This document shows, piece after piece, positions 51,204 through 57,549 of a stretch of DNA of 64,000 bases; the stretch's first letter is position 1, and each line of letters starts with the position of its first letter. Under the pieces are notes generated by a model. That model ran no database searches. It was not told where the DNA came from and was given only the letters and a program-made list of their open reading frames with translations. The stretch covers positions 186,001 to 250,000 of the forward strand of contig NZ_NFKF01000002.1 of assembly GCF_002160255.1 (NCBI RefSeq). The letters are read 5' to 3'. Made by a program: the position numbers and the translations under genes. The stretch comes from Olsenella sp. An188 (GTDB lineage Bacteria; Actinomycetota; Coriobacteriia; Coriobacteriales; Atopobiaceae).

Positions 51204-51281
51204 GCAAATTCGGCGAGAAGGACGCCCGCTCCGCGGTCGTGCTTAACAATCTGGGGTTATGGCACGCCGGACCCCAAACGT

Positions 51282-51422
51282 GCTTAGGAATCCGGGGTTG
51301 TGGCAGGGCCGTCCGCACAAAACCCTCTCACCGGCCCGCACTTCTCGACAAAAGCCCAGTTGGCGAGAAGAACCTCCCGCCGCGCCCCCGCGCCTCTCTG
51401 CCACAACCCCCGATTCCTAAGC
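51282..51422. repeat. 141-bp inverted-repeat element, copy C, with extra half copy
   Basis: The 25-base ends (51282-51306, starting GCTTAGGAATCCGGGG; 51398-51422, ending GATTCCTAAGC) pair at 24 positions. Inside, CTTCTCG (51341-51347) pairs with CGAGAAG (51364-51370) around ACAAAAGCCCAGTTGG. A degenerate direct copy of the left end (20 of 25) lies at 51241-51265. The element occupies the divergent region between the DeoR-type and aldolase genes. Confidence 0.8.
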
Positions 51423-51563
51423 GCCGCCCAGCCCGCGGCGCCCAGGGCCCGCACTCCTGCCCTTGCTTTCGCTTCCGCGCGCCGCTCGCCGCTTGCACGC
51501 CCCGCACCGCCCCTCCCACCTCGTACAATGACGGTGTCGATAAGCCCAGCGAAGGGAGACAAG

Positions 51564-55831: not shown

Positions 55832-56302
55832 GTGCGCGCGCTCATCCAGCGCGTCGAGAGCGCACAAGTTGAGGTCGGCGGCACCGTGGTGGGCAGCTGC
55901 GGCGCCGGCTACCTCGTGCTCCTCGGCGTGGCGCCGACAGACGACGAGGCGCTCGCCGAGCGGCTCTGGCGCAAGGTGGCGGCACTTCGCATCTGCGCGG
56001 ACGACGCCGGCAAGACCAACCGCTCGCTCGTGGACACCGGCGGCGACGTGCTCGTGGTGAGCCAGTTCACCCTCTACGCCGACGCGCGGCGCGGCAACCG
56101 CCCCTCCTTCACCGGCGCCGCGGCGCCCGCGCTCGCCGAGCGGCTCTACGAGCGCTTCTGCGAGCTCGCGGAGGCGGACCTCGGCGCGGGGCGCGTGGGG
56201 CGCGGCGTCTTTGGCGCGGACATGCGCGTGAGCCTGGTCAACGACGGGCCCTTCACCGTGCTTCTCGACACCGACGAGCTCGGCTGGAGCGCGCAGGCCT
56301 AG
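55832..56302 (+). CDS. dtd: D-aminoacyl-tRNA deacylase
   Basis: A 156-residue DTD that removes D-amino acids (and Gly mischarged on tRNA(Ala)) from tRNA. It starts MRALIQRVESAQVEV and has the SQFTLYADARRGNRPSF active-site motif; the second motif, NxGPVT in most members, reads NDGPFTVLLD here, a conservative change. The GTG start directly follows the M32 peptidase stop. The 3' end is 8 bases before the inverted-repeat element at 56311. Confidence 0.95.
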   Translation: MRALIQRVESAQVEVGGTVVGSCGAGYLVLLGVAPTDDEALAERLWRKVAALRICADDAGKTNRSLVDTGGDVLVVSQFTLYADARRGNRPSFTGAAAPALAERLYERFCELAEADLGAGRVGRGVFGADMRVSLVNDGPFTVLLDTDELGWSAQA

Positions 56303-56310
56303 CGCTCGGC

Positions 56311-56437
56311 GAGAAGAACGCGCGGCTTGCGGACGTTTTTCTCGACAAAAGTGACCGGAACCCGCACGCTTCCGTCGAAGGTGCGGGTTCCGGTCGTTTT
56401 GAGGCGGCAAAGCGTCCGCAAGCCGCGCGTCCTTCTC
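56311..56437. repeat. 127-bp nested inverted-repeat element, copy D
   Basis: Outer arms ACGCGCGGCTTGCGGACG (56318-56335) and its exact complement (56413-56430) are extended by GAGAAG (56311-56316) and CTTCTC (56432-56437), so the dispersed motif forms the base of the structure. A second perfect 15-bp dyad, GACCGGAACCCGCAC (56353-56367) with 56381-56395, lies inside. The loop segment TTCTCGACAAAAG is also found in element C. It fills the gap between the convergent dtd and manA genes. Confidence 0.85.
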
Positions 56438-56473
56438 GATAGGTGAGCCCGGGGCAGCCCCGGGGGCGCGGGG

Positions 56474-57439
56474 CTACGGCAGGCGCGAGGTCACGAGCGT
56501 CATGTCGCCGCGGAAGGTCAGGTCGCCGCAGCCGGAGGGCGCCAGGAAGTGCGTGCCCCTGCCGACCTTGTGCTCCACGCCGGCCTCGGCCGCGCGCACG
56601 GTGCCCTCGCCGTCGATGACGCTCACGCACAAAAACGGCCAGGGCTGCCCCAGGACCTTCTCGCCGTCCACGCGCACGCGGTCCACGACGAAGTTGGGGC
56701 ACTCCATGAGCTCGGTCACGCCGTCGACCTCGGGCGCGCTGATCTCGCCGGACGCGGGCGCGACCATGTCGTAGTCCACCACGTCGAGGCTCTGCTGGAT
56801 GTGCAGCTCGCGCGGCTTGCCGTCGTCGCCCACGCGGTCGTAGTCGTAGACGCGGTAGGTGACGTCGGAGGACTGCTGGGTCTCGAGGATCAGCGTGCCG
56901 CCCTGGATGGCGTGCACGCAGCCCGGCTCGATCGGGAAGAAGTCCCCGGCGCTGCAGGGCACGAGGTTGAGCATGTCGTCCCAGCGGCCCTCGTCGATCA
57001 TGGCCGCGAGCTCGGCGCGGTCGTGCGCGTGCTGCCCGATCACGATCTTGGTGTCGGGGTCGGCAGCCAGCACGTACCAGCACTCGCGCTTGCCGAGGCT
57101 GCCGTTCTCGTGCTCGGCGGCGTAGACGTCGTCGGGGTGCACCTGCACGGAGAGGTTGTCCTTGGCGTCGATGATCTTGACCAGCAGCGGGAAGCGGTCG
57201 CCCTCCACGTTGCCAAAGAGCTCGCGGTGCTCGTCCCAGAGCTCGGAGAGGTGCTTGCCAGCCCACGCGCCCTCGGCGACCACGCAGTCACCGTTGGGGT
57301 GGGCGCTTATCGCCCAGCACTCGCCGATCGGCCCGTCGGGAATCTCGTAGCCGAAGTCGTCTGCCAGCTTGCGACCTCCCCAGATCTTCTCGTGAAAGAT
57401 GGGCTCCGGAAAGACAAGGTCGCGCTTCGTGTCGGACAT
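56474..57439 (-). CDS. manA: mannose-6-phosphate isomerase, class I
   Basis: A 321-residue zinc isomerase that interconverts mannose 6-phosphate and fructose 6-phosphate. Motifs: HEKIWGGRKLADDFG at the start, zinc ligands in LSVQVHPDDVYA, KRECWYVL and PGCVHAIQGGTLILE, and QQSSDVTYRVYDYDR, the class I signature. The start at 57439 follows GGGGGAG. It is downstream of the lipoprotein gene on the same strand (110-base gap) and converges with dtd across element D. Confidence 0.95.
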   Translation of the reverse strand: MSDTKRDLVFPEPIFHEKIWGGRKLADDFGYEIPDGPIGECWAISAHPNGDCVVAEGAWAGKHLSELWDEHRELFGNVEGDRFPLLVKIIDAKDNLSVQVHPDDVYAAEHENGSLGKRECWYVLAADPDTKIVIGQHAHDRAELAAMIDEGRWDDMLNLVPCSAGDFFPIEPGCVHAIQGGTLILETQQSSDVTYRVYDYDRVGDDGKPRELHIQQSLDVVDYDMVAPASGEISAPEVDGVTELMECPNFVVDRVRVDGEKVLGQPWPFLCVSVIDGEGTVRAAEAGVEHKVGRGTHFLAPSGCGDLTFRGDMTLVTSRLP

Positions 57440-57549
57440 GACTCCCCCGTTTCGGTCGGACTTCAGGGACGTTTGACGAGAAGGGCGGGGCGCACGAGAC
57501 GCCCCGCCCCACATGATAGCCGCTTTTCAGGCTCCTCGCGCGAGCGCGC

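Follow-up and report, generated by a model that had tools for sequence, protein, structure and literature searches.

Element D, an intergenic palindrome of Thermophilibacter, is built on a short dispersed DNA word that may act in DNA uptake

The convergent genes dtd (D-aminoacyl-tRNA deacylase; 55832-56302, plus strand; TIGR00256, PF02580) and manA (mannose-6-phosphate isomerase; 57514-56474, minus strand; TIGR00218) of a Thermophilibacter genome (Atopobiaceae, Coriobacteriia) enclose a palindromic intergenic element, here called element D. Within the window, i.e. the whole stretch of 64,000 nucleotides that was analysed, element D occupies positions 56308-56440 (no strand assigned); it starts 5 nt past one stop codon and ends 33 nt short of the other.

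An earlier note on this DNA had described a nested dyad at 56311-56437 with a perfect 18-bp outer and a perfect 15-bp inner stem, and both pairing and fold confirm it. The arms of the outer stem (56318-56335 and 56413-56430, read on the plus strand) are complementary at 18 of 18 positions and, past one mismatch, run on into CGAGAAG/CTTCTCG, as the note had said for the motif GAGAAG/CTTCTC. Those of the inner stem (56353-56367 and 56381-56395, plus strand) match at 15 of 15 positions around a 13-nt loop, with AAAAGT preceding the 5' arm and GTTTTG following the 3' arm. The note's view that D goes beyond an ordinary terminator with a single stem is supported. Taken as a single inverted repeat, D has 58-nt arms that are 81% complementary, and its minimum free energy (-105 kcal/mol on the plus and -102.9 kcal/mol on the minus strand; shuffle means -58 and -54) was reached by none of 200 shuffles on either strand (z about -12 on both). 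A search for the motif at its base revealed three copies of the core of one short word, one forward and two inverted: the exact word GGCGAGAAGAAC at 56308-56319 (plus strand), CGAGAAAAAC at 56335-56346 (minus strand; core CGAGAARNNC intact) and CGAGAAGGAC at 56429-56440 (minus strand; core intact), so that D carries the word at both ends. A further copy (core CGAGAAGCAC; 56258-56269, minus strand) lies within the dtd coding sequence.

The 13-mer TTCTCGACAAAAG in the loop (56339-56351, plus strand) does recur in element C, at 51342-51354; it consists of the inverted word copy at 56335-56346 continuing into AAAAG. The proposal that conservation rests in the loop rather than in the stem did not hold up: in the BLASTN relatives of D the stem arms are conserved and the loops vary, and the 13-mer is found only twice in the 2.14-Mb genome. 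The 38 noncoding TTCTCG sites of the window (a count that rests on our home-made gene calls) include five pairs whose 7-nt extensions are identical (ACAAAAG is one such extension), and a single shared 13-mer is therefore unremarkable. We thus rejected the 13-mer as a conserved unit. Element C (51240-51450) itself represents another family of dispersed palindromes, made up of GTGCTTAGGAATCCGGGGTTGTGGCA and its inverse, which again adjoins copies of the word; among the matches listed, similar stretches lie at 171.7 kb of contig C9 and 87.9 kb of contig C15, and other repeated stretches, e.g. with TTGTGCG or GATGCCACCCAATCGC, also adjoin word copies.

The motif at the base of D is truly dispersed, as the note had supposed. 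In the 2.14-Mb genome GGCGAGAAGRAC occurs 638 times (323 + 315 on the two strands), the reversed word 0 times. Single-base variants of the 12-mer define the word as GGCGAGAA[G/A]NNC, with CGAGAA and the final C strict and positions 1-2 and 9-11 tolerant. In a sample of 563 kb (all of contigs C9 and C15 plus 60 kb of C10) the 9-mer GGCGAGAAG ranks first of all 9-mers by z under an order-3 Markov model, with 445 copies against 49 expected, a strong over-representation near one per kb. Both strands carry the word, at one copy per 1.1 to 1.3 kb; its density between genes is 4.1-fold higher than within them for GGCGAGAAG and 18.5-fold higher for GGCGAGAAGAAC.

Inside genes the word is kept at the DNA level and in several reading frames. 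Compared with synonymous-codon shuffles of the coding sequences from our home-made gene caller, GGCGAGAAG ranks first of 57,896 coding 9-mers (242 versus 78.5), and the second-ranked TGGCGAGAA overlaps it. In a frame test on 428 of 466 coding sequences, from which those shorter than 300 nt or scoring low had been dropped, the excess is found in the antisense phase CTT-CTC-GCC (116 versus 6.5), in antisense phase -2 (28 versus 5.3) and in sense phase 0 (87 versus 64); a control word, GGCGAGGAG, has 7 copies versus 54 in the phase CTT-CTC-GCC. The rare codon CTT accounts for 116 of 175 leucine codons in Leu-CTC-GCC contexts and for 884 of 14,812 leucine codons overall (p about 1e-99). In sequence logos, coding and noncoding word sites show the same flanks.

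Known DNA uptake sequences are described, in the available excerpts of PMC3630211 and PMC12616744, as the most abundant word of a genome, with hundreds to thousands of copies within and between genes, inverted pairs at terminators and dialects around a fixed core. Those of these traits that sequence alone can test are found in Thermophilibacter, and we give about an even chance to the reading that the word works as a DNA uptake sequence in this genus, element D being an intergenic palindromic repeat built on it. Close noncoding word pairs are inverted in 50 cases and direct in 13; outside the regions occupied by D's own repeat family (family 1, see below) the preference persists (38 versus 11, p 1.4e-4). 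Among the matches listed, both orientations of the word occur in 11 of 18 word-bearing convergent regions versus 7 of 32 divergent ones (p 0.013).

The main rival, which predicts much of the same pattern, is a Chi-like role: the word would be a recombination signal read by a nuclease-helicase of the AddAB, RecBCD or AdnAB type, kept for break repair and hence scarce in foreign DNA. An over-represented short word, dense in resident DNA and kept in coding frames, would suit such a role, as would its scarcity in one island: the zone at 30-40 kb of C9 (G+C 0.573) holds a single GGCGAGAAG, and it has the appearance of a foreign island, with genes for an AAA ATPase, a subtilase and polysaccharide functions in and just before it. 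Chi-like words likewise differ between taxa, according to the portion of PMC8022716 available to us, where the Chi of E. coli is also described as leading-strand polarised. In this genome the strands are mixed, with counts of 323:315. Every 25-kb bin of the sampled contigs contains both strands. The sample as a whole is slightly skewed (246:199, p 0.03), in our view because antisense coding phases are better tolerated; noncoding copies number 61:49, 11:10 and 29:37 on the three pieces. For the 22 listed sites on the chromosome of T. provencensis the best two-arc split is 15 of 22. On these strand counts, an incomplete test of leading-strand polarity, none was seen in the genome counts and bins, the noncoding copies or the T. 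provencensis sites. A Chi-like role also leaves the inverted pairs unexplained, and we consider it rather unlikely.

As an observation on the island itself, an AAA ATPase gene is directly followed by a subtilase gene at 27.9-31.1 kb of C9 (L144:7858-11129), in low-G+C, word-poor DNA beside the polysaccharide genes; we take this gene pair to be reminiscent of defence systems.

The word and its relatives are spread widely over the genus and differ beyond it. All 25 genus genomes have GGCGAGAAGAACGT, at 11 to 57 copies apiece; of 15 others, 3 have it, at 1 or 2 copies. Across 149 genomes drawn from the whole order, copies of GGCGAGAAGRAC number 40 to 673 in all 10 genus genomes, 45-86 in all five of g18, 291 in the sole g23 genome, 59 and 79 in g27, and 54 and 18 in g25. 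One g26 genome has 19 and one g24 genome 18, a single genome from another family has 44, and the rest have at most 15. The form TGCCGAGAARC, counted in 121 genomes, reaches 362 and 360 copies in two g17 genomes, 69-91 in eight of g27 and 12-65 in sixteen of Thermophilibacter. Samples of 200 kb from each of six other genomes revealed dialects. The top 9-mer is GGCGAGAAG in both sampled genus members (and so in three Thermophilibacter genomes including this one); the top word is TGGCGAGAAG in g18 and TGCCGAGAA in g17 (81 versus 3.1, with GGCGAGAAG at just 4 copies), and no such word was found in the samples of g26 and g22. Synonymous shuffles agree, the word being the first coding 9-mer in the two genus members, g18 and g17 and not in g26 and g22. 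Counting this genome, there are three word types in seven sampled genomes, two of the seven being without a word; sister genera bear different words around the common core CGAGAA, and some bear none.

Two other words were observed in these samples. GTGCAAAAG is over-represented in that of T. provencensis (20 versus 0.6; L189-L198), as a second word. GGACGCTTCGG has 27 copies in the g22 genome G097 (L239-L248), often as close direct pairs, all of them noncoding and 0 in coding DNA, where the noncoding count is an upper bound, as our caller gave just 75-88% coding in the other genomes; it looks like another intergenic repeat family.

A word that is genome-wide, on both strands, at one copy per 1.1 to 1.3 kb and denser between genes could also be bound by some abundant protein of the chromosome, such as a nucleoid or segregation factor, unrelated to uptake. 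This would not account for the inverted pairing at gene ends or for differing words in sister genera, and we judge it distinctly unlikely.

A BLASTN search of the genome with element D yielded 71 matches at E <=10, including both strands of some single places, D being palindromic. The relatives are built from a single arm of about 20 nt, related to ACGTGCAGGTTGCGGACG, whose copies alternate between direct and inverted orientation, and they frequently open with GGCGAGAAGAACGTGC or close with GCACGTTCTTCTCGCC. Short 39-nt forms (L055, L056, L062) consist of two inverted terminal words flanking a small centre. The arms of this family (family 1) are noncoding in 62 cases and coding in 2 in the sampled genome, and they occupy 17 intergenic regions: 10 tandem, 6 convergent and 1 divergent (of 232, 62 and 72, respectively; convergent versus divergent, p 0.049). 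The word core lies near the arms in 16 of the 17. D is an ordinary member of this intergenic palindromic family.

The structure-aware comparison proposed in the note found no compensatory stem changes across members. In 14 members, picked from the BLASTN loci as near full-length relatives (short and partial ones being left out), 85.1% of cells are paired versus 86.3% after shuffling, and there is no covariation; pairing within members is no better than randomly dealt pairing, and adjacent pairing is worse. The complementarity of the stems therefore stems from inverted copies, with no sign of selection on the fold. A structured RNA was rejected, as the consensus fold and pair counts of the 14 members lack covariation and an Rfam gathering search of the window matched no family; a tRNA/tmRNA search of the window found none.

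REP/BIME and BOX elements are modular, dispersed, intergenic palindromes that are patchy between species. D resembles them in each of these respects, a comparison that covers element D and family 1. It differs from them in being built on a genome-wide word, and in that no Rfam family matched in the window. The family is patchy as well: at E 1e-6 it was found in 8 of 25 genus genomes (this one included) and in 0 of 15 others, at most 22 candidates being scored per genome. One might thus regard the word as the mere end of REP- or MITE-like mobile repeats, family 1 and others, that have copied themselves around the genome, and the word cores in nearly all family-1 regions would fit. Yet the word is present in every one of the 25 genus genomes and family 1 in only 8, and thousands of bare, in-frame genic copies have no flanking repeat and have synonymous codons adjusted to the word. 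The coding-frame data are already hard to reconcile with such an origin, which we hold to be improbable.

Concerning the site itself, element D lies at a break in gene order (55832-57514): in the 24 nearest loci (L063-L086) dtd is followed, in place of D and manA, by an apparent mscL, borne out by a profile match for L070 only. An insertion test at the dtd locus gave no clean empty site, as the gene order differs.

That D is solely a bidirectional transcription terminator in which the motif is incidental is highly improbable, for although the convergent genes, the strong inner stem between AAAAGT and GTTTTG and the placement of family 1 (a single divergent region) would suit it, the terminator scan does not call D, and a motif that is the top 9-mer of both the genome sample and its coding DNA is not incidental. 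A terminator function as such is compatible with the reading of the word as an uptake sequence. Judging from its position and stems, D probably ends transcription of both dtd and manA; it may be a composite in which a word pair doubles as terminator, with A-tract, stem and T-tract in both directions between convergent genes.

If the word is an uptake sequence, the competence machinery would prefer word-bearing DNA, and word-bearing alleles would be imported and recombined more often. The word would then build up genome-wide in each reading frame that tolerates it, and intergenic copies would settle as inverted pairs able to double as transcription terminators. Genes for DNA import are present: comEC adjoins comEA in this genome, which also has dprA, a Tad locus at 74-83 kb of C10 (genes for CpaB-like, ParA-like, TadA, T2SSF and TadE proteins) and, on contig C13, genes for a comGA-like ATPase and a two-domain T2SSF protein. 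Among relatives, ComEC was detected in 39 of 40, and DprA and a T2SSE-type ATPase in 25 of 25 each. We infer that the organism may be transformable and that the word may be read during uptake. The T2SSE-type ATPase also occurs in 60 of 61 family genomes, and we therefore rejected the machinery as a discriminator of word-bearing and word-free genera; being present also where the word is absent (g26 and g22), it permits the uptake reading and is no proof of it.

Several observations count against the uptake reading. The intergenic skew (4.1-fold, and 18.5-fold for the 12-mer) exceeds purely neutral placement, in part because palindromic repeat families contribute. A receptor of the known kind could not be recognised: none of the 25 genus genomes gave a match for classical type IV pilins (PF07963), a 27-position profile that could miss divergent pilins, although Tad and comG-like parts are present. 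Finally, two of the six sampled relatives (g26 and g22) have no word despite their machinery genes.

The closest parallel is the DNA uptake sequence (DUS) of the Neisseriaceae, in the available part of PMC3630211 likewise a top over-represented word at about one per kb; it lies on either strand, within coding frames as well as in intergenic DNA, forms inverted pairs near gene ends and varies from genus to genus about a short invariant core. Here, in contrast, the core is CGAGAA and not CTG, the phylum is another and no classical type IV pilin was found; also, the DUS is known for uptake, whereas the Thermophilibacter word is known from its sequence. The uptake signal sequence (USS) of the Pasteurellaceae, of which two types are known, shares a 9-mer core, hundreds to thousands of copies and inverted pairs (PMC12616744, as far as its text was available); it differs in sequence and phylum, and our logo has no AT-rich flank. 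Micrococcus luteus, an actinobacterium with comEA/comEC and a tad locus, undergoes Tad-dependent transformation (PMC4322843); the available excerpt of that paper mentions no uptake sequence, and for Thermophilibacter the system is known from genes.

According to the accessible part of PMC3630211, a requirement of transformation for uptake sequences is unique to Neisseria and Pasteurellaceae. In the open-access literature, most subscription journals being outside its scope, we found no report of uptake sequences in Atopobiaceae or of this word. Somewhat below an even chance we place the further proposal that the Atopobiaceae have a third, independent uptake-sequence system, with CGAGAA dialects read by a Tad- or ComG-type filament or by ComEA and not by a classical type IV pilus. 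If confirmed by experiment, uptake sequences would be new for this bacterial branch, and their rise in a Gram-positive lineage, the third such origin, would mean that self-preferring genetic exchange evolves repeatedly. It would also open to direct test the way in which a machine lacking a classical type IV pilin can read DNA sequence, and would offer a route for DNA into a gut group that is hard to manipulate; the dialects would predict which genera can exchange DNA.
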